Shown: piece after piece, positions 8,512-19,627 of the stretch
Layout: the number at the start of each line of letters is the position of its first letter
Position numbering within the stretch: position 1 is the stretch's first letter
DNA from: Niabella ginsenosidivorans
Lineage (GTDB): Bacteria; Bacteroidota; Bacteroidia; Chitinophagales; Chitinophagaceae
Reading direction: 5' to 3'
Length of the DNA: 64,000 nt
Assembly: GCF_001654455.1 (NCBI RefSeq)
Contig: NZ_CP015772.1
Location: forward strand, 1,736,001-1,800,000
Translations under genes and position numbers: made by a program
Notes under the pieces: model-generated
Database searches by the model: none
What the model was told of the DNA's origin: nothing
The model's input: only the letters and a program-made list of their open reading frames with translations

Positions 8512-10239
8512 CTATGTATTGCCGGATACCGGCAACACTACCGTAAATTCTGTGCCTACTCCAAATTCACTGTTAACGCTGATGGTACCGCCCTGTGCTT
8601 CGATCAGCTCTTTGCTGATGGAAAGGCCCAGTCCGGTACCTTCTTTTTTGGAACCGGGTATGCGAAAGTACCTGTCAAATATCTTATCCAGATAAAAAGG
8701 GGCAATGCCCTGTCCGAAATCCTTTACAGAAAATACCACCCGCTGTCCGTACGTGGTAATTGAAACGGCAATAATACTGTTATCGTGGCTATACCTGAGG
8801 GCATTGGAAATAAGATTGCTGAAGATCCAGGTTGTTTTATCGGCATCTACATGCAGCAGGGGTAGCTGCTCCGGTATCTTTGTCTGGATCCGGATATTTT
8901 TAGCTGTAGCCGCGGTTTCATTCATCTGGATAGCCTTCCGCATCAGCTCATCCGGGCGGCTCAATACCGGTTGCAATTGCAGCTTGCCACTTTCCAGTTG
9001 CGTTACGTTCAATAACTCACTTGTTATCTTTAGCAGGCGCTCTGCATCATCCTGTATGCTTTCCACCAGCTCTTTTTGCTCATTATTCAGTGTTCCGACC
9101 CCCGGGTTCTCCAGTAGCTGAGAGCTCATTTTAATGGAGGATATCGGCGTTTTTAATTCATGGGAAACAGTTGCTATGAAGTTAGTTTTTGCATAATCCA
9201 GTTCTTTAAACGGGGTGATGTTTTTCAGGAAAATAACATCGCCCAGGTGCTGTGGCTTTTTGTCTCCAACAGGAACGGCATTGATCGGGATGATCGCTTT
9301 GTCAAAATAGCTTTCTTTGTTATCTGCATATATCTTTAAAGGTTCATTTGTACCAGAAGGCTCAAAGAAGTCCCTGATGAGCATGCGGATGAGATCGTTT
9401 TTGATTGCAAGATCCTGCACCTGTTTGCCAATCACCTCTTCCGGCCGGGTATTGGTAATCTTGTAGGCCTCTTCGTTCATGAAAAGCACCTTTTTATTTT
9501 CGTCCAGGCCAATCACAGGCTCATGAATATTCTCAATCAGTGTTTCTACCCGCTGTTTTTCCGTCATTAACCTTGCAAGATTGCTGTTATTGTATTGTTC
9601 CAGTTTTTGTGCCATTGTGTTAAAGGCATTGGCCATATCGCCAAATTCATCCGGCCGGTTAAAGGTTACCCGTTTGGAGTAATTTTCGGCTGCAATGCTC
9701 TGGATGCTTTTTGTAAGCTCATCTATCGGACCTGCAATTGAAGCCGGCAGGTTCAGCAGTAACGTAAAGGATATAATGAAGCATAATGTGCCTGCTACTG
9801 CGATCCATACAATGGCCTTTTCCGCAGTTTCTGTGGCAATTTTGCTTTTCCGCTGAATGGCCTCCATGTTCACCAGCATAATATCGGCCAGGTCCTTTCT
9901 GATCTTTGTCAACATGGCCGTTGTTGTATTACCGGCTGTAATAGAGTTAAAATCCTGCTGCAGGTGATCTGTGGCCAGCCGCTCAGTGGGCTCTGTAATG
10001 TTTTTTTGCTGCATTTTGAGGTTGCTCTCAAATTTGGCACGTGCCTGGGGCAGACGTACGTCTTCATCCAGGGCCAGCAACATTTCGCGGGAGTAAGCAA
10101 CAGAGTTATAGTTGGAAACCAGTATGTTCTTGGTGTCCGATGAAAGTCTGTTTACATACACGCTGGATAAAATAGCCAGAAATGCGATCAGTATAAAGAG
10201 GGCTCCCAAACCCAGTATCAATTTTGTTTTAATGCGCAT
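8512..10239 (-). CDS. Membrane sensor histidine kinase (HAMP-PAS-HisKA-HATPase) of the kdp locus
   Basis: A 575-residue kinase. TM1 is at about residues 7-29, a periplasmic stretch follows, then TM2 at about 143-166, HAMP (to about 220), a PAS domain (about 232-340), HisKA with FIATVSHELKTPISSIKM (phospho-accepting His) and a HATPase with N box NLISNALRYSHDN and G box GTGLGLSISKEL. It is the last gene of the kdp run, 36 bp after the KdpD sensor half. It probably supplies the kinase half of a split KdpD, with the sigma-54 activator at 18191 as likely partner (inference from position). An inverted repeat (TTGCCGG-ATA-CCGGCAA, 8519-8535) sits in its last codons. Confidence 0.92.
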   Translation of the reverse strand: MRIKTKLILGLGALFILIAFLAILSSVYVNRLSSDTKNILVSNYNSVAYSREMLLALDEDVRLPQARAKFESNLKMQQKNITEPTERLATDHLQQDFNSITAGNTTTAMLTKIRKDLADIMLVNMEAIQRKSKIATETAEKAIVWIAVAGTLCFIISFTLLLNLPASIAGPIDELTKSIQSIAAENYSKRVTFNRPDEFGDMANAFNTMAQKLEQYNNSNLARLMTEKQRVETLIENIHEPVIGLDENKKVLFMNEEAYKITNTRPEEVIGKQVQDLAIKNDLIRMLIRDFFEPSGTNEPLKIYADNKESYFDKAIIPINAVPVGDKKPQHLGDVIFLKNITPFKELDYAKTNFIATVSHELKTPISSIKMSSQLLENPGVGTLNNEQKELVESIQDDAERLLKITSELLNVTQLESGKLQLQPVLSRPDELMRKAIQMNETAATAKNIRIQTKIPEQLPLLHVDADKTTWIFSNLISNALRYSHDNSIIAVSITTYGQRVVFSVKDFGQGIAPFYLDKIFDRYFRIPGSKKEGTGLGLSISKELIEAQGGTISVNSEFGVGTEFTVVLPVSGNT

Positions 10240-10275
10240 TTGCTTTTGTTTTAATAGCTGCAGATTCGCACCCGC

Positions 10276-11385
10276 TTAACTAAGTATGACCAGATCAATA
10301 TGACTATTGCTCAATTTTTTTAAAAGATTATTAAACACATTGGTGGCGCCAATGATCTGGAACAGGCTTAAATGGGGTTTGCCGATGCAGATGGTGGTTA
10401 TTTTCCGCTCTTCTGCCTGCTCCACAATGGCGGCAGATATCCGATCCTCCTTTATTTTGATGATTTCCGCGCCCAGCTCTGTTGCCAGCTGGAAATTATT
10501 GATAAGATACCGCTGCTTGTTTAACTGGATCTTATCGGCGCTTTCTGCAGATGTTTCTACATACAGCACATACCATTTGCTGTGATAATAGTTGGCCAGG
10601 CGCGCGGTTTTACGGATGACGGTCTTTGCCGTAGCCTCGTTGCTGCTGATGCAGGCAAGGAACCGTTCCTGCTGAACAGGCAACTTTACGATCTCGGTTT
10701 CAACCTTGCGCTCTACGGCAGAGGCAACTTCCTTTAACGCCAGTTCCCTTAGCTGAAGGATGTTCTCATGCCTGAAGAAATTGCTGATTGCCGATTGGAT
10801 CTTATCGGCCTTATAAATTTTCCCTTCTTTTAAACGGGTGATCAGCTCGTCAGATGGCAGATCAATATTTACCACATCATCGGCTTCCTTAATAAGGCTG
10901 TCCGGGATGCGCTCTGTTACATTTACACCGGTTATTGCAAGAACGTCCTCGTGCAGACTTTCAATATGCTGGATGTTTACCGCTGATATTACGTTAATAC
11001 CGGCATCAAGGAGATCGCGTACATCCTGCCAGCGCTTTGCATTGCGGCTGCCCTCAATATTGGTATGGGCCAGCTCATCTACCAGCACAATTTCGGGCCG
11101 CAGGTTTATGATGGCGTCAGTGTCCATTTCTTCCAGCTCCTTTCCTTTATAAAACAGCCGCCGCCGGGGAACTTCGGGGATCCCCTTTACCAGCGCTTTT
11201 GTTTCTTCCCTGTTATGGGTTTCAATATACCCGATGCGTACATCAATGCCGTTTCTCAAAAGCGTATGCGCCTCCTGCAACATCCGGTATGTTTTTCCCA
11301 CGCCGGCGCTCATGCCTATATAGAGCTTGAACCGGCCCCGTTTGCTTTTCCGGATGAGCTGTAAAAAATCTTCTGCTGAGTCCAT
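10276..11385 (-). CDS. kdpD: KdpD sensor protein, N-terminal half only (KdpD domain + USP domain)
   Basis: A 369-residue soluble protein. It carries the KdpD domain (about residues 15-225) with Walker A GMSAGVGKT, the DELAHTN motif and VNIQHIESLHEDV, then a universal-stress-protein-like domain (about 245-365). The four-helix membrane part and the histidine kinase core of enterobacterial KdpD are absent; a separate membrane kinase gene follows 36 bp downstream. In other bacteria this half binds ATP, and its USP domain can bind c-di-AMP, tuning the response to K+ limitation. Which ligand is bound here is unknown. It is 12 bp from the upstream porin gene, so co-transcription is likely. Confidence 0.93.
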   Translation of the reverse strand: MDSAEDFLQLIRKSKRGRFKLYIGMSAGVGKTYRMLQEAHTLLRNGIDVRIGYIETHNREETKALVKGIPEVPRRRLFYKGKELEEMDTDAIINLRPEIVLVDELAHTNIEGSRNAKRWQDVRDLLDAGINVISAVNIQHIESLHEDVLAITGVNVTERIPDSLIKEADDVVNIDLPSDELITRLKEGKIYKADKIQSAISNFFRHENILQLRELALKEVASAVERKVETEIVKLPVQQERFLACISSNEATAKTVIRKTARLANYYHSKWYVLYVETSAESADKIQLNKQRYLINNFQLATELGAEIIKIKEDRISAAIVEQAEERKITTICIGKPHLSLFQIIGATNVFNNLLKKLSNSHIDLVILS

Positions 11386-12513: not shown

Positions 12514-13077
12514 TTACTTTATGTTATCCAGTGCAATATTTAATTTTAGAACATTGACTTTAGCCGGCCCGAATAATCCCAAAAGAGGTTTTTGAATATG
12601 GGCCTGTACCAGCATTTGAACCCGGCTTTCCGGCAGGTTGCGTGCCCTTGCTACACGAGGCACTTGTATGAAAGCAGCTGCCGGCGACAGATCGGGATCT
12701 AAACCACTGCCCGAACTGGTTACCAGTTCTGCAGGTATAGCCGTTTTCTCAACTCCCGGGTTATGCGCCAGGAACGTATCTGTTTTTGCCTGAACCTCTT
12801 TGAGGTAATGCGGGTTAGAAGGCCCTTTGTTACTACCGGCGCTGCCGGCAGCATTATAATTGACTGCGGAGGGGCGGCTCCAGAAATAGTTGTCAGCTGT
12901 GAATTTCTGTCCAATATTGGCGTACCCAACTACTTTTCCGTTCACACTTAATTTTTCACCATCGCCACCGCCTGGTGTTAACCTGCCGACTCCTGCAATC
13001 AGCAATGGATACAAAACAGCACATAGTATAATAAAGATCAGGGTTAACATTAAAGAGGGAAAAATATATTTTTTCAT
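12514..13077 (-). CDS. kdpC: Potassium-transporting ATPase subunit C
   Basis: I place the start at ATG 13077 (MKKYIFPSLMLTLIFIILCA), giving 187 residues as in the family; a longer open frame to 13125 would overlap kdpB. One membrane anchor is followed by the periplasmic domain with YPLLIAGVGRL, YFWSRPSAVNYNAAGSAGSN and ELVTSSGSGLDPDLSPAAA, all KdpC signatures. KdpC stabilises the KdpFABC complex and aids K+ delivery to KdpA. kdpB ends 19 bp upstream. Confidence 0.96.
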   Translation of the reverse strand: MKKYIFPSLMLTLIFIILCAVLYPLLIAGVGRLTPGGGDGEKLSVNGKVVGYANIGQKFTADNYFWSRPSAVNYNAAGSAGSNKGPSNPHYLKEVQAKTDTFLAHNPGVEKTAIPAELVTSSGSGLDPDLSPAAAFIQVPRVARARNLPESRVQMLVQAHIQKPLLGLFGPAKVNVLKLNIALDNIK

Positions 13078-13096
13078 TTTTTGCGTTATTTTTTTA

Positions 13097-15139
13097 CTAC
13101 ATAAAAAGTGCGAGCACCATATCAATTAATTTTATCCCGATAAAGGGCACTATAACACCACCTAATCCATAGATCAGCAGATTCCTGCGCAGCAACGCAC
13201 TTGCCCCGATCGGCTTGTAGGCCACTCCTTTTAAAGCGAGCGGGATGAGGATCGGTATAATAATAGCGTTAAAGATAACCGCAGAAAGGATGGCACTCTG
13301 CGGACTGGTAAGATGCATGATATTTAAAGCCTGTAAAGTAGGCATGGAAGCGATGAATAAAGCCGGCACAATTGCAAAATATTTAGCTACGTCATTGGCA
13401 ATAGAAAAAGTAGTCAGTGTGCCTCTTGTCATTAATAACTGCTTACCGATTTCTACAATTTCAATAAGCTTGGTAGGGTCATTATCTAAATCAACCATAT
13501 TACCGGCTTCTTTTGCGGCTTGTGTACCACTATTCATTGCAACGCCCACATCTGCATGGGCCAGCGCAGGGGCATCATTGGTGCCATCGCCCATCATCGC
13601 TACCAGTTTACCACCTTCCTGCTCTTTTTTAATATAATCCATTTTGTCTTCAGGCCTGGCCTCTGCTATAAAGTCATCTACACCTGCTTTATCGGCAATA
13701 TATTTGGCAGTTAAGGGATTATCGCCCGTAACCATCACTGTTTTTACACCCATTCTGCGTAAACGCTGAAAGCGTTCCCGGATGCCGGGTTTAATAATAT
13801 CCTGCAATTCAATTACGCCAATTACTCTGTCGTTTTCTGCAACTACCAGCGGTGTGCCTCCGTTATTTGAAATTTCTTTTACTTTCTCAGCTATTTCTTC
13901 AGGGAAATCATAACCTGCTTTATCGCTCATTTTTTTTATAGCATCCACTGCACCTTTGCGGATGCGTACAGTGTCATAATTGATGCCCGAGCTTCTTGTT
14001 TCAGCTGTAAAAGGAACAAATTGCGGTCTTTCAATTTTTAAAGTAGCGGTATCAATTGCCGCAAGTTCCACAATCGATTTGCCTTCCGGTGTTTCATCGG
14101 CTAAAGAGCTGAGTACCGCGCATCTTATAAAATGCTTTTCTTCCACATCATTAGCGGGGAAAAAATGGGTCGCCTTTCGGTTACCAATGGTAATTGTACC
14201 TGTTTTATCAAGTAGTAAGGTATCAAGATCACCTGCTGTTTCAACGGCTTTACCGCTTTTAGTAATTACGTTGGCCTTTAACGCCCTATCCATTCCTGCA
14301 ATACCTATAGCGCTTAACAAACCTCCAATTGTAGTAGGTATAAGACACACGTATAGTGAAACAAATGCTGCAATAGTAATGGGCGTATTGGCATAATCGG
14401 CGAAGGGCTTCAGCGTAACGCAAACGATGAGAAAAATTAATGTAAAACAGGCCAGCAAAATTGTAAGCGCAATTTCATTAGGCGTTTTTTGACGGCTGGC
14501 ACCTTCTACCAATGCAATCATTTTATCCAAAAAGCTTTCTCCGGGATCGGTGGTTACCTTAACTTTTATATGATCGCTCAACACCTTGGTGCCGCCTGTT
14601 ACGGAACTTTTGTCACCGCCTGCTTCACGGATTACCGGGGCTGATTCGCCCGTGATCGCACTTTCATCAATAGTGGCGAGCCCTTCAATGATCTCCCCGT
14701 CAATAGGAATAATGTCTCCCGTTTCACATATAAAAAGATCACCTTTCTGAAGTTGTGAAGAGGGAACGGTTTTTACCTCGTTTACATACATTTCTCCTAC
14801 AAGGAAAACTTTTTTTGCCGGGGTATCTTCTCTTGTTTTCCGCAAGCTATTTGCCTGGGCTCTGCCCCTTGCTTCTGCTATAGCTTCGGCAAAGTTGGCA
14901 AATAATACTGTTATAAATAAAATAACAAAAATGGTAATATTATACGCCAAGCTGCCCTGCGATTGCTCCCCGGCCATGATCCAGCAACATACGCCCAGCA
15001 TAATAATAGTACCAATGTAAACGGTGAACATGACCGGGTTTTTCATCATAACGCCCGGCTTTAGTTTTATAAAAGATTGCTTTATGGCTTCCTTAATTAA
15101 AGAAGCGTTTAATAATTTATTTTGTGATTCTTGTTTCAT
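13097..15139 (-). CDS. kdpB: Potassium-transporting P-type ATPase subunit B
   Basis: A 680-residue catalytic subunit of KdpFABC. It has the TGES motif (about residue 164), the phosphorylation motif DKTGTIT with Asp311, the KGAVDAI nucleotide-binding region, and [10 protein letters not shown] and [24 protein letters not shown] hinge motifs. ATP hydrolysis here powers K+ movement through KdpA. Length and motifs are complete, with no sign of decay. kdpA ends 57 bp upstream. Confidence 0.97.
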
Positions 15140-15196: not shown

Positions 15197-16915
15197 TTAT
15201 TGTAAAAGCTTTAAATATTCTGCTATCGGCCCAACCACTAAAGGGGGGAAATAAGACAGCGCGGTGATGATGAGAATAACAGCGAACGTCATGATGCCAA
15301 AGGTTGCAGAGTCTGCTTTCAATGTGCCTGCTGATTCGGGAATATATTTTTTATTGGCCAGTAACCCGGCAATGGCAACAGGCCCGATAATGGGTAAATA
15401 CCTTCCCAGTATCATGGCAATGCCTGCTGTAATGTTCCAGAAAGCATTATTATCAGCCAATCCTTCAAAACCACTGCCATTATTAGCATTGGCCGAAGTA
15501 AACTGATACAACATCTCGCTGAATCCATGATAGCCGGGATTATTAAGCCAGTTAGCGGGCTTCACCGCCCATCCTATATCAGGATGGTGAACAAAATAAT
15601 AGGCTGCTAATGCTGTGCCCCCTTTAATAATAAAGGCAGAGAGTAATGTAACCAGGGCAGCTATCTTTACTTCACGGGCTTCCACTTTATGCCCCATAAA
15701 TTCAGGCGTTCGCCCTACCATCAATCCTGATATAAATACTGCAATGATGATATAGATATAATAGTTCAGTAACCCTACACCACACCCCCCGTAAAACGCG
15801 TTGACCAGCATACCCAATAGTTGCATTAAACCGGAAAGCGCCATGGAGCTATCATGCATGGAATTGACAGAACCTGTGGAAATAACAGTCGTTAATATGC
15901 TCCAGTAACCTGAAGCCGCCGGGCCAAACCGCACTTCCTTACCTTCCATTGCACCGGTAGGTTGCAGAATACCCATACGGGCTATTTCAGGATTACCATG
16001 AATTTCCGTGCTTATGGTGGGGACCAATAAGCAGAGCATGCCAACCGTCATAACGCCAAAAATGACATAAGCCAGTTTTTTCCTTTTTAAATAAAATCCT
16101 AACGCAAATATCATTGCCATAGGTATCAGCACCTGCGCGATTATCTCCAGCATATTTGTGAAATAATTCGGGTTTTCCAGAGGGTGGGCTGAATTGGCCC
16201 CAAACCAACCGCCACCATTTGTACCGAGATGTTTGATGGCAATCATACCGGCAGCGGGTCCGCGGGATACCTGTGTTGTGTCACCCTGCAGGGTAGTAAT
16301 GGTGTCTTTCCCTGCATAACTGGCAGGGGTGCCGTTGAAAGCCAGCAATACTGCAATGAGGATACAAACCGGCAATAAGATGCGGGTAATGGTCTTTGTA
16401 AAAATTACCCAGAAATTGCCAAGATCGTTGGTGGTTTTTTCTTTCAGGCCTTTAAAAACAGCAATCAGGCAGGCTATTCCTGTGGCAGCGCTTACAAATT
16501 GTAAGAAGGTAATCACAAATAACTGCGTTAAATAGGTTACGCCTGTTTCGCCTGAATAGTCTTGCAAATTACAATTTACTAAAAAGCTGATAGCCGTATT
16601 AAAACTCAGGTCGGGCGTCATATCAGGGTTCCCATCCGGATTTAGAGGCAGGTGAGACTGGTAACGAAACATAAAAAAAGCGTAAACCAGCCATAACAGA
16701 TTAATGCTCAGCATAGCCTTTAGGAATTCTTGCCAATTCATCCCCTGTGCGGCGTTCACCCTGCTGATGCGAAAAATAAAACGCTCCAGCGGGTTCATAA
16801 AATCAGTAAGTGTTTTTTCCCCGTTAAATACTTTAGCTATATACTTTCCAAATGGATATGCTAATAATACGGTTATAAGAAAACAGGCAATAACACCTGA
16901 TAATTCAGTATTCAT
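15197..16915 (-). CDS. kdpA: Potassium-transporting ATPase subunit A
   Basis: A 572-residue polytopic K+ channel-like subunit starting MNTELSGVIACFLITVLLAY. It carries the KdpA selectivity-loop signatures NCNLQDYSGE, HLGTNGGGWFGANSAHPLEN, STGSVNSMHDSS and the final TSANANNGSGF. A TTG two codons upstream is a less likely start. It lies 20 bp after kdpF. Together with KdpB, KdpC and KdpF it forms the high-affinity K+ pump used when external K+ is scarce. Confidence 0.97.
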   Translation of the reverse strand: MNTELSGVIACFLITVLLAYPFGKYIAKVFNGEKTLTDFMNPLERFIFRISRVNAAQGMNWQEFLKAMLSINLLWLVYAFFMFRYQSHLPLNPDGNPDMTPDLSFNTAISFLVNCNLQDYSGETGVTYLTQLFVITFLQFVSAATGIACLIAVFKGLKEKTTNDLGNFWVIFTKTITRILLPVCILIAVLLAFNGTPASYAGKDTITTLQGDTTQVSRGPAAGMIAIKHLGTNGGGWFGANSAHPLENPNYFTNMLEIIAQVLIPMAMIFALGFYLKRKKLAYVIFGVMTVGMLCLLVPTISTEIHGNPEIARMGILQPTGAMEGKEVRFGPAASGYWSILTTVISTGSVNSMHDSSMALSGLMQLLGMLVNAFYGGCGVGLLNYYIYIIIAVFISGLMVGRTPEFMGHKVEAREVKIAALVTLLSAFIIKGGTALAAYYFVHHPDIGWAVKPANWLNNPGYHGFSEMLYQFTSANANNGSGFEGLADNNAFWNITAGIAMILGRYLPIIGPVAIAGLLANKKYIPESAGTLKADSATFGIMTFAVILIITALSYFPPLVVGPIAEYLKLLQ

Positions 16916-16935: not shown

Positions 16936-17016
16936 TTAAAATTTTTCTGGCTTCAACAGCACATATAAGAGGTATATAAATACCAGGATCGAGACTATTA
17001 ATAATGCATTAATCAT
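16936..17016 (-). CDS. kdpF: Potassium-transporting ATPase subunit F (26 residues)
   Basis: A 26-codon frame directly upstream of kdpA. It starts MINALLIVSILVFIYLLY and ends LLKPEKF. A single hydrophobic helix followed by a short LKPE(K/R)F tail is the KdpF signature, and the position (before kdpA, 20 bp apart) is the expected one. KdpF is a small helix that stabilises the KdpFABC complex. It is too short for most ORF callers, so it is easily missed. Confidence 0.9.
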   Translation of the reverse strand: MINALLIVSILVFIYLLYVLLKPEKF

Positions 17017-17020
17017 TGTT

Positions 17021-17101
17021 TCATATTTTTTCAAAAAAGTCAATAGATTTAAAGAACAGGTAAAAGCAGGTCAGACCCGCCAGCAATAGAATGATTGTCA
17101 T
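17021..17101 (-). CDS. Candidate 26-residue single-helix membrane peptide upstream of kdpF
   Basis: An ATG-to-TGA frame of 26 codons ends 4 bp before the kdpF start. It begins MTIILLLAGLTCFYLFF and ends KSIDFFEKI: one hydrophobic helix plus a short charged tail. Its length and layout mirror KdpF. It overlaps the 3' end of the GNAT gene in another frame. It could be an additional small subunit or regulator of the Kdp pump, a translational leader for kdpF, or chance; the tight spacing and membrane-peptide composition favour a real gene. Confidence 0.55.
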   Translation of the reverse strand: MTIILLLAGLTCFYLFFKSIDFFEKI

Positions 17102-17633
17102 ATAGATTTATTTTTTGTTTTTTATGTTGAGGATCAAATAGCAGGGCCGTGCACAAGCAATTTTTATACCCTGTCGATTGCAGCGTATTATAATGAGCGC
17201 AGCTTTTACAATTTTCCCGGAATAAGATGCCCAGTGTAATTTCAGCACAGGTAACCGGATTGAGTCCTAAGCTGGCGTTTATTTTCATTGTTGCGAGGCC
17301 GGTAGTGATACCAAATATTTTGGCATTAGGGAATTTTTTCCTTGTTAGCCTGAATAGATTCTTTTTCAGTTTCGTGGCAACGCCTCTTCTTCTCCAGTGA
17401 GGCGATACAATAAGGCCACAATGCGATACCAATTGATCGTCTTCCCAGCCTGATTGCGTAGCAGCAATTACGGCTTTCCCTTCCCGGATTTCCTGATTGA
17501 TCAATTCCGGTGAACGTTTAGCAATTCCGGTTCCCCTCGCTTTTGCGGACGCTTCCATTTCGTTTACGATTGTCCTGGCATATTGCTGATCCTGGGGAAC
17601 AGCTACACGGATAAGGATATCATTTATTTTCAA
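17049..17633 (-). CDS. GNAT-family N-acetyltransferase with Cys-rich C-terminal region
   Basis: A 194-residue protein. The acetyl-CoA binding core is HCGLIVSPHWRRRGVATKLK (motif A, RRRGVA), followed by KIFGITTGLATMKINASLGL. A Cys-containing segment (ENCKSCAHYNTL ... NCLCTALLFDP) resembles GNAT proteins encoded near arginine biosynthesis genes in Bacteroidota (recalled, not checked). The only plausible start is TTG at 17633, since the next ATG would remove the first strand. It lies 30 bp after the small hypothetical gene and overlaps the 26-residue peptide gene before kdpF, so it appears to be part of the kdp transcription unit. The acceptor substrate is unknown. Confidence 0.8.
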   Translation of the reverse strand: MKINDILIRVAVPQDQQYARTIVNEMEASAKARGTGIAKRSPELINQEIREGKAVIAATQSGWEDDQLVSHCGLIVSPHWRRRGVATKLKKNLFRLTRKKFPNAKIFGITTGLATMKINASLGLNPVTCAEITLGILFRENCKSCAHYNTLQSTGYKNCLCTALLFDPQHKKQKINLYDNHSIAGGSDLLLPVL

Positions 17634-17663: not shown

Positions 17664-18023
17664 TTATAATCCTGAAGTAGACATTTGCTGAACATACACG
17701 GAATAAAGCGTTACGGGTATTTTGGTCTGAATCACTTTCCATTCCCTGTCATTGCATTTGGCTTGCCAACTCGAAAAAGAGAATACAAAAACATTTTCAA
17801 TGGCGCTTTTTACAAAGCGGTTCCCTTTACCATAAATAGTGCCTACTAAACGCATGCATTGTATAACCTTAGGTAAATTATGTAGAGAAAGCATTTTTTT
17901 AGAATAGCCGGCTAATACGTTCATGATCTGAACCGCATCCCCAAAAGCGGAGATCTTTTTTATTTCCGGGCAAATACCAGGTATTTTATCTTCAATCATT
18001 GCCGGAATTTCATATTGATTCAT
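17664..18023 (-). CDS. Small hypothetical protein, first gene after the kdp sigma-54 promoter
   Basis: A 119-residue soluble protein starting MNQYEIPAMIEDKIPGICPE. I do not recognise the family with certainty; it may belong to the poorly described DUF7674 group. The start is set at ATG 18023 because a candidate sigma-54 promoter (18040-18057) covers the longer version. ATG 17999 is an alternative that would leave a more usual leader. It carries FGDAVQIMNVLAGYSKKM and a basic stretch GKGNRFVKSAIENVFV. The GNAT gene follows after 30 bp. Confidence 0.6.
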   Translation of the reverse strand: MNQYEIPAMIEDKIPGICPEIKKISAFGDAVQIMNVLAGYSKKMLSLHNLPKVIQCMRLVGTIYGKGNRFVKSAIENVFVFSFSSWQAKCNDREWKVIQTKIPVTLYSVYVQQMSTSGL

Positions 18024-18039
18024 AATGGTTGTTTTTATT

Positions 18040-18057
18040 ATGCAGCTGTATTGCCAA
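18040..18057 (-). promoter_or_regulatory. Candidate sigma-54 (-24/-12) promoter for the kdp operon
   Basis: On the reverse strand the sequence TTGGCAATACAGCTGCA places GG (18055-18054) and GC (18043-18042) exactly 10 nt apart, as needed for sigma-54. The -24 half is a full TTGGCA; the -12 half is CTGCA against consensus TTGCA. It lies downstream of the gene for an NtrC-type sigma-54 activator and its terminator, and before the first gene of the kdp run. The predicted start point is near 18030, leaving a very short leader if ATG 18023 is used. Confidence 0.6.
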
Positions 18058-18139
18058 ATACATTCCAATTGTGAGCCGGCATGCCTTATAACGCTATTAA
18101 TCAGTTAAATATGAATAGCTCATTCAGTGCCGGTGCATT

Positions 18140-18190: not shown

Positions 18191-19534
18191 TCAGAGCTGG
18201 TATTCTTCTATTTTCCTGTATAAGGTGGCAATTCCTATTTCAAGCAGGCGGGCGGCTTCTGCTTTGTTTCCCCCGGTAAATTGTAATATCCGTTGTATAT
18301 GGCTTTTTTCCATAGCTGCCATGGAGCAGGGGTTGATGTTTGCTTTGCCGGCTGCTGCGGCATATTGCTGTATTTCAAACGGCAGGTCTTCAACGTGAAG
18401 CTCATCGCCCTGCATTACTATTACGCCGCGTTCAATTACATTCTTCAGTTCACGGATGTTTCCCGGCCAGTTGTGGTGCTTTAACAGCTCCAGAGCTTCT
18501 TTTGAGATGGATGCGTTTTTCCTGTTTGTCTTTTGTGCAAAAGCTGTTAAATAGGACCGGGCCAATAGGGGCACATCCTCTTTCCGTTCCCTTAAAGAAG
18601 GAAGTTTTATTTCAAAGATCGAAATCCTGTAATAAAGATCTTCCCTGAAACTTCCTGCTTTAATGGCCTCCTGCAGGTCGCGGTTGGTTGCGGCTATCAG
18701 CCGTATATTGATCTGGGTAGGCCTGTTTTCGCCAATTTTTATGAATTCACCGGCTTCCAGCACCCGTAATAATTTTGCCTGCAGGTCTACCGGCATTTCA
18801 CCGATCTCATCAAGAAACAATGTTCCGTTATGAGCTTCTTCCAGCAGCCCGGTCTGGTCTTTTGTTGCACCGGTAAAGGATCCTGCCCTATGGCCAAATA
18901 ATTCACCTTCCAGCAGGTCGCGGCTAAAGGCCGCACAGTTGATCGCCACAAAATTCTTATGCCTCCGTTTACTTCCTTCATGAACAGCCCGGGCAAATAC
19001 TTCCTTTCCTGTTCCTGTTTCGCCGGTCATTAAAACAGTGGTATCCGTAAAGGCCACCTTTCTTGCCAGCGTAATGGCCTGTTGTATGGCAGCGGATTTG
19101 CCGATAATGTTGTCAAAGGAATATTTATTACCCAATTGTTTTTCCAGGTGCTTTACCCTTTTTGTAAGGGCCACTTTTTCAATAGCCCGGTTCAGCAGCG
19201 GAATGATCTTATTGTTGTCATCTCCCTTTGTAATATAATCAAAGGCTCCGTTCTTTATAGCCTGTACACCATCCGCAATATTCCCGTATGCGGTCAGAAG
19301 AATGATCTCTGTTTCCGGTCGCTCCGATTTTATTTTTTTTACCAGATCCACACCGTTGCCATCCGGCAGCTTTACATCGCAAAGCACTACGTCAATGTCT
19401 GTTTTCTCGAGGTGTTTTAAGCCGGATCTGCAATCACCCGCCTGCAATACTTCAAATCCTTCCAGGGTAATAATACGGGAAAGTAACAGCCTTAGCTTTT
19501 CTTCATCATCAATGATCAGCACTTTATTTTTCAT
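18191..19534 (-). CDS. Sigma-54-dependent response regulator (NtrC family), likely kdp activator
   Basis: A 447-residue protein starting MKNKVLIIDDEEKLRLLLSR at ATG 19534; an upstream in-frame extension is not family-like. The receiver domain (1-120) has phospho-acceptor Asp in LCDVKLPDGNG. The AAA+ domain (about 140-375) has Walker A GETGTGKE, the sigma-54 contact loop as GSFTGA (Ser in place of the usual Ala) and Walker B GTLFLDEIGEM. A Fis-type HTH (GGNKAEAARLLEIGIATLYRKI) closes the protein. It is upstream of the kdp genes on the same strand, but a strong terminator and a sigma-54 promoter lie between. It probably takes the KdpE role here; that is inference from context. Confidence 0.93.
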   Translation of the reverse strand: MKNKVLIIDDEEKLRLLLSRIITLEGFEVLQAGDCRSGLKHLEKTDIDVVLCDVKLPDGNGVDLVKKIKSERPETEIILLTAYGNIADGVQAIKNGAFDYITKGDDNNKIIPLLNRAIEKVALTKRVKHLEKQLGNKYSFDNIIGKSAAIQQAITLARKVAFTDTTVLMTGETGTGKEVFARAVHEGSKRRHKNFVAINCAAFSRDLLEGELFGHRAGSFTGATKDQTGLLEEAHNGTLFLDEIGEMPVDLQAKLLRVLEAGEFIKIGENRPTQINIRLIAATNRDLQEAIKAGSFREDLYYRISIFEIKLPSLRERKEDVPLLARSYLTAFAQKTNRKNASISKEALELLKHHNWPGNIRELKNVIERGVIVMQGDELHVEDLPFEIQQYAAAAGKANINPCSMAAMEKSHIQRILQFTGGNKAEAARLLEIGIATLYRKIEEYQL

Positions 19535-19627
19535 CTTCAGAAATGATAGCAAATGTACTACAATAAGGCACATTCCTCATTACCGGTTGCAGGTTGCCGT
19601 ATTTGAGTTTGCGTGGTGGGCCAAGTT

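Follow-up and report, generated by a model that had tools for sequence, protein, structure and literature searches.

In this work, we describe a conserved small protein gene, here named S, which gene finders overlook and which is kept by selection beside the Kdp potassium pump in many bacteria. Its conservation, its coding constraint and its linkage to kdp are shown, as is the occurrence of similar peptides in other phyla. By a modest margin, we favor the reading that S is a second small accessory subunit of the pump, beside KdpF; its translation, membrane insertion, topology, association and effect are inferred. If S is a real pump part, the four-subunit E. coli model of KdpFABC, the textbook K+ pump, is incomplete for many bacteria. 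With such a protein, which E. coli K-12 lacks, the stabilisation and shut-off of the pump would become open to direct test outside E. coli, and coding sequence may lie in the 5' leaders mapped upstream of kdpF.

The S gene and its locus

The window, i.e. the whole analysed stretch of 64,000 nucleotides from Niabella ginsenosidivorans, is part of a 5.63 Mb single-contig genome. Its minus strand carries, in the order of transcription, a response regulator, a DUF7674 protein, a GNAT-family protein, S, kdpF, kdpA, kdpB and kdpC:

18191-19573, minus strand: response regulator, sigma-54-dependent (NtrC)-like; by eye from the translation, no profile scan
17664-18068, minus strand: upstream DUF7674 protein gene; PF24722, E=3.3e-20
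17049-17633, minus strand: GNAT-family gene; PF00583, 20.9 bits (cut-off 20.7)
17021-17101, minus strand: S, predicted single-pass membrane peptide of 26 residues directly 5' of kdpF; supported by family alignment, kdpA co-occurrence and pN/pS
16936-17016, minus strand: kdpF, 26 residues, ending LLKPEKF; PF09604, E=4.7e-9, and TIGR02115, E=3e-8
15197-16915, minus strand: kdpA; PF03814, E=2.3e-220, and TIGR00680, 569.5 bits (cut-off 387.7)
13097-15139, minus strand: kdpB, P-type ATPase subunit; from position and DKTGT motif, no profile scan
12514-13125, minus strand: kdpC; from position and sequence, no profile scan, the real start being probably an internal ATG

S is a frame of 26 residues, MTIILLLAGLTCFYLFFKSIDFFEKI, which starts with the ATG at 17101 and ends SIDFFEKI. 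Its stop is followed after 4 bp by the ATG of kdpF, whose stop lies 20 bp before the kdpA ATG (16915), and it shares 53 bases with the 3' end of the GNAT frame, in a different reading frame. The initial annotation had described a kdpF of 26 residues, ending LLKPEKF and 20 bp from kdpA, and a second frame of the same length at 17021-17101, 4 bp before kdpF and overlapping the GNAT gene: the former description held, the latter held to the base. The range it reported started at 16936, which is the end of kdpF; S proper is 17021-17101.

Searched against Pfam and NCBIfam, the S peptide of the window gave no match at E<=10; kdpF and kdpA do match. Ten further S peptides, scanned against the same collections, gave no KdpF match at E<=10 and none of any kind above cut-off. 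Among solved structures, the sole match of the S family alignment was a weak one, to an NADH dehydrogenase chain (E=0.18); kdpF used as query matched nothing, so that this search is blind to any relation between S and the solved KdpF.

Other features of the locus may be recorded here. The kdp cluster adjoins, by eye, an NtrC-like response regulator (18191-19573) and not an OmpR-type KdpE, and KdpD is apparently split, again by eye, within 8512-11385: a HAMP-type histidine kinase at 8512-10239 stands apart from a KdpD N-terminal/USP-like protein at 10276-11385.

Co-occurrence with kdpA and distribution in Bacteroidota

S is a gene of the Kdp operon, found with kdpA and not without it. A profile from an alignment of 63 S peptides was searched, at a threshold of E<=1e-4, in 147 Chitinophagaceae whole genomes, kdpA being found in 80. 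S was detected in 71 genomes, all of them (71/71) among the 80 kdpA-positive ones (hypergeometric P=2e-32), and in 0 of the 67 kdpA-negative ones, where the best match had E=0.006. The profile itself includes sequences from some of these genomes: positive matches are thus partly by construction, while absence elsewhere and position are not. In 70 of the 71 genomes S lies on the contig and strand of kdpA and upstream of it, within 500 bp in 65 cases and at 636-1372 bp in the other five; in the last genome (G005, locus L239) it is on a different contig from kdpA, behind a response-regulator gene.

Nine kdpA-positive genomes have no S match at E<=1e-4 (G014, G021, G061, G074, G075, G090, G113, G120 and G137). 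A diverged S candidate is in place in G014 and G113 (loci L053 and L054), and in G074, G120 and G137 kdpA was found only as a fragment without its beginning.

A survey of Bacteroidota loci required an S profile score of at least 11 bits within 700 nt upstream of kdpA, the best antisense decoy reaching 10.3 bits. S was found in 72 of 79 named Bacteroidota loci (the set holds 80, one without the KdpA start) and in 63 of 71 Chitinophagaceae loci, both sets having fed the profile. At the same score threshold it was also found in 3 of 3 Bacteroidales plasmid loci and in 34 of 60 loci from other Bacteroidota families, gathered later than the seeds, yet including at least two (L204 and L230) identical to seed loci; of the other 26, five score 6-11 bits and 21 lower. 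Wherever both genes were found in a Bacteroidota locus, S precedes kdpF (162 of 162), at a median gap of 5 nt, not exceeding 20 nt in 142 loci and replaced by a 4-nt overlap in six. The sequence of S is kept despite genes lying between it and kdpF in two genomes (G062 and G099; loci L242 and L240).

In several loci of one lineage with 2-3 Mb genomes (f17; L188, L192, L196, L198, L202, L226 and L231), a small hydrophobic frame of the MNVYHHLYFGILIFLILAGAAGLIG type precedes kdpF; it is recognised by neither S profile.

Coding constraint, length and predicted topology

Selection on the frame was evaluated in 164 loci with S recognised by profile at 20 bits, corresponding to 158 distinct S sequences, by comparing pairs of 70-97% DNA identity, each locus being used once. 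Six locus pairs in the set have identical upstream sequence, the window and L001 among them; since a few genomes occur twice, the compared pairs are not all independent. The pN/pS of S is 0.234 (bootstrap 95% 0.205-0.265) over 51 pairs, while the frames shifted by +1 and +2 over the same DNA give 1.16 and 1.78; for kdpF the value is 0.191, over 86 pairs. Differences within S number 210, 103 and 438 at codon positions 1, 2 and 3, respectively. The S frame is under purifying selection, as a translated protein gene would be: the constraint is shown, while translation is inferred in the absence of expression data.

The length of S is 26-28 codons in 153 of 164 loci, a figure which partly reflects the start rule adopted (where there is one, the ATG of the longest frame not above 28 codons); independently of this rule, the stop-to-stop open frame does not exceed 31 codons in 56 of 165 loci. 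The peptide ends FEKI in the window and mostly [DE][KRN][IL] elsewhere, and Phe is found at -4 in all 124 seed sequences. Conservation at this end is partly by construction, the seed pattern having fixed the type of the last five residues and required a hydrophobic residue at -4 and an acidic residue at -3; what is informative is just that the hydrophobic residue is Phe. S features one hydrophobic stretch with positive residues on one side: averaged over 124 seeds, a peptide has 1.72 Lys or Arg among its last 10 residues and 0.02 among its first 8. As nearly all positive charge is C-terminal, an N-out, C-in orientation is expected by the positive-inside rule. That S is a single-pass membrane protein with its N-terminus outside is thus inferred from sequence alone, no topology predictor or localisation data having been used.

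These data bear on the possibility that the S frame is open merely by chance, within the end of the GNAT gene. Its small size and, in the window, its overlap with a second gene would allow this. The explanation is opposed by the conservation of S, the selection acting on it and its co-occurrence with kdpA, and also by the GNAT proteins themselves: among the relatives found at five other loci, the alignment stops at residue 170-171 of 194 in four and at 186 in the fifth, so that the tail overlapping S (residues 178-194, approximately) is mostly not common to them. A chance origin is all but excluded, being refuted by protein conservation across Bacteroidota, by kdpA linkage and by pN/pS. The initial annotation had suggested searching for the SIDFFEKI-type tail directly upstream of kdpF in other Bacteroidota and comparing synonymous with non-synonymous changes, and held that either absence of the frame or lack of protein-level conservation in related kdp operons would refute it. 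Both were tested and its reading survived: the frame is present in most Bacteroidota kdp loci examined and is tightly linked to kdpA, similar peptides occur in other phyla, and a pN/pS of 0.23 indicates purifying selection in the S frame.

Similar peptides outside Bacteroidota

The sample outside Bacteroidota comprises 26 plasmid records with kdpA, located via KdpA because a direct tblastn of one 27-residue S peptide against plasmids found nothing; being plasmid-borne and only a few lineages deep, it does not allow a true frequency to be derived. A similar peptide lies beside kdpF in 17 of these loci, from Actinomycetota, Pseudomonadota, Deinococcota and Bacillota, such as MMDILLLGAAILFFALCLAYTRACDRL in Rhizobium, MADLAFVVTTIAVFALVALVAKGVTKL in Streptomyces and MDILLPLLLVVFFALCAAYLRGMDNL in Deinococcus radiodurans. 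The gene order is reversed in Allomeiothermus (L155), where S follows kdpF. The 17 peptides were chosen by eye, and subsequently tested with leave-one-clade-out profiles against all stop-to-stop frames of 18 residues or more on both strands of each upstream window, 13-30 per window: the chosen peptide ranked first in 16 of 17 loci and scored at least 10 bits in 14, the others (L158, L166 and L169) reaching only 0.7-2.9 bits.

No S was recognised in the other 9 of the 26 plasmid loci (L156, L165, L167, L170, L172, L234, L243, L244 and L245). The last three Proteobacteria loci among them, L243 (Ideonella), L244 (Duffyella) and L245 (Cupriavidus), served as a prospective test, in which 0 of 3 had S by profile; they speak against universality of S. 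The kdp locus of E. coli K-12 also has no S. As this locus and nine of the 26 plasmid loci show no recognised S, Kdp can work without it.

The Bacteroidota and the non-Bacteroidota S profiles align over 26 columns, with HHalign scores of 17.2-17.8 and a probability of 29-38%, the best of 60 column shuffles reaching 10.9. The non-Bacteroidota profile, which contains no Bacteroidota row, ranks 165 Bacteroidota S above 5224 other window frames with an AUC of 0.93, and above 199 KdpF peptides with an AUC of 0.73; its median score on Bacteroidota S is only 3 bits, and 17 of 165 exceed the best decoy (9.1 bits). Most peptides of both forms are 26-27 residues long, carry Phe at -14 and end in an acidic, a basic and an aliphatic residue. 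The two forms are likely to be homologous, with the caution that the inference rests on short hydrophobic sequence, that the link is weak in absolute terms, and that it does not exceed the link between either form and Bacteroidota KdpF (HHalign 16.1-19.3).

Relationship to KdpF

S may be an ancient duplicate of KdpF, doing a similar job at a second site. The two peptides are equal in length, each with a single hydrophobic helix, and in Bacteroidota both show Phe at -14 and a Glu-Lys-hydrophobic end. Bacteroidota KdpF scores 18.5 with Bacteroidota S in HHalign (16.2 in the reverse direction) and 19.3 with non-Bacteroidota S (16.1 in reverse), values which match the level of S to S and which, according to the pair and the direction, either none or 1 of 60 column shuffles attains. 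The S profile gives up to 12.4 bits on KdpF, where the best decoy has 10.3. A possible intermediate is found in Deinococcus QL22 (L170), with two tandem KdpF-like peptides upstream of kdpA (22.0 and 20.0 bits with the KdpF profile).

On the other side, no S scanned matches the KdpF models PF09604 or TIGR02115, and the KdpF profile gives at most 8.6 bits on S (best decoy 6.0). KdpF from other phyla scores only 11.0-12.9 with the S profiles, levels reached by 3 and 0 of 60 shuffles; the aligned stretches of S and KdpF, of 18-25 columns, are not anchored at a common end, and membrane helices are alike through composition. Profile comparison cannot separate an S that is a paralogue of KdpF from one that forms a separate family. 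Paralogy was given more weight because of the added profile-comparison control and remains a serious possibility, even if the balance tips slightly against it. Its standing overlaps with that of the pump-accessory reading, since descent from KdpF is compatible with the accessory-helix mechanism and differs as to family only.

Upstream sites and leaders

Sigma-54-like sites were searched within 400 nt upstream of S with a consensus, at a score of at least 10 of 12, simple base shuffles serving as control. Such sites occur in 54 of 164 loci, where 10 are expected by shuffling; of the 59 sites, 35 are no more than 100 nt away from S. At a score of at least 11, the only one also counted between S and the kdpF start, 16 loci have a site upstream of S and none in that interval. 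It follows that S probably heads the kdp transcript in some species, no promoter having been located in the window. The -7 motif of Bacteroidota promoters is TAnnTTTG; it shows no enrichment, rather a depletion. Relatives of the response regulator of the window were found by tblastn in 126 of 245 loci, many of the stretches being too short to contain the gene.

Long leaders before kdpF have been mapped elsewhere: a 120-bp 5' UTR precedes the 87-bp kdpF of M. smegmatis (PMC5401905), and about 100 nt precede kdpF in Caulobacter (PMC8552747). Both are long enough for S, and it is possible that they contain it; their sequences were not inspected. No S is recognised in Tsukamurella, of the same order as Mycobacterium; one is in Rhodococcus.

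S might thus be a cis-acting leader, whose translation opens kdpF or couples the ribosome to it, the peptide itself being inert. The median gap of 5 nt and the 4-nt overlaps in 6 of 162 loci are as expected for translational coupling, and the published leaders are in line with this explanation. Against it are the pN/pS of S, the Phe at -4 in every seed, and the recurrence of S residue patterns across phyla. A leader role alone is unlikely because the sequence is kept with intervening genes (L242, L240) or on another contig (L239). We regard this alternative as very improbable: it is largely excluded by the pN/pS of 0.23 together with the retention of S where genes intervene.

Other small proteins near kdp

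Further small frames were observed around these operons. In 22 loci from about 20 genomes (L113, L119, L098, L023, L007, L065 and L199 among them), a third kind of small membrane ORF codes for some 30-40 residues and lies before S or between kdpF and kdpA; a profile built on 7 seeds recognised the 15 other loci (17.5-39.5 bits, best decoy 8.7). A fourth, of the KPWHLL type, lies upstream of S in 8 loci from 7 genomes (L119, L125, L031, L114, L014, L045/L123 and L133; 3 seeds, best decoy 9.9 bits). Proteins that by eye resemble DUF7674 recur near kdp in relatives, with two candidates in L240 (724-1083 and 1380-1763), only the window copy having been scanned. Between S and kdpF, L242 encodes a protein with a signal-like start (736-1305), and one similar by eye is encoded just downstream of S, away from kdpA, in L239 (1711-2289); their lengths are 189-192 residues.

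Literature and existing annotation

In the open-access literature searched, no paper naming a second small Kdp protein was found. KdpFABC is described as made of four subunits, with KdpF a single helix (PMC8385062, PMC6255902); the kdp passages of PMC10903887, PMC9650054, PMC11364881 and PMC7903761 mention only KdpF, and no further small gene appears in the bearing passages of PMC5716572, on D. radiodurans kdp, and PMC4686210. The main text of a paper on the S. meliloti small proteome (PMC10117765) does not contain "kdp".

S is annotated in 2 of 15 annotated S-bearing plasmid loci; the PLSDB gene table is incomplete, kdpF also missing from some. One annotated copy is WP_212667346.1, "potassium ABC transporter ATPase", of Mycetohabitans endofungorum; the other is the tail of a longer hypothetical protein of Arthrobacter. 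The initial annotation had called the frame new: this holds insofar as no match above cut-off in Pfam or NCBIfam and no description in the literature searched were found, and must be qualified, one RefSeq record already holding S as a protein under an uninformative name.

Proposed function

S is most simply read as an accessory helix of the pump, given that it is linked to kdp and shows a KdpF-like constraint. According to this reading, S would be translated, from just 5' of kdpF, as a single-pass inner-membrane protein of about 26-27 residues, its helix oriented N-out, with the K/D/E/K tail on the cytoplasmic side. The helix would pack against the membrane part of KdpA/KdpB, and may stabilise the Kdp complex or adjust how active it is, in a way comparable to KdpF. 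The initial annotation had proposed a second small subunit or a regulator of the K+ pump; the proposal is supported, the choice between subunit and regulator not being shown.

The main mechanistic rival is that S is a membrane regulator of the KdpD sensor and its regulatory system, and not of the pump; small membrane proteins can act in this way, MgrB acting on PhoQ. In favor of such a role, S lies behind an NtrC-like regulator and away from kdpA in G005, and a regulator gene ends shortly upstream in other loci (e.g. L053 and L128). Against it, S is linked to kdpFA, 65 of 70 copies lying within 500 bp upstream of kdpA, and S-like peptides occur where the fetched stretch has no regulator relative (L157, L160, L161, L162 and L236). 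KdpD was not surveyed, and we consider a sensor regulator unlikely.

The accessory-subunit reading admits a bolder form: many bacteria would build their Kdp pump from five kinds of subunit, S being ancestral and lost in E. coli, the source of the Kdp structures in the literature searched, and S would also correspond, in bacteria, to the small helices that regulate P-type ATPases of animals. Other P-type ATPases are acted on by small regulators, sarcolipin being an example. Taken jointly, these claims are tentative, and we would not at present quite subscribe to them.

Comparison with known systems

S resembles CydX, AcrZ and MgrB, and the sarcolipin/FXYD regulators of P-type ATPases, in being a single helix that acts, in the case of S by inference, on a larger membrane complex; no sequence relation to any of them is claimed. 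WP_212667346.1 (34 aa) is the same peptide: it lies directly before kdpF, has the sequence MDLIYLAGIVLFLGLCMALAAGCDKL... and scores 23.3 bits with a profile untrained on its group, differing in a short C-terminal extension and in a name without recorded function. The closest comparison is KdpF (PF09604 / TIGR02115), with which S shares a length of about 26 residues, one hydrophobic helix, a charged C-terminal tail, a neighbouring position in the operon, a similar strength of selection (pN/pS 0.19 for KdpF, 0.23 for S) and a possible distant profile similarity. In contrast with KdpF, S has no KdpF model match and ends FEKI/CDRL-like, where KdpF ends PEKF; and while the KdpF gene adjoins kdpA, S precedes kdpF in nearly every locus.
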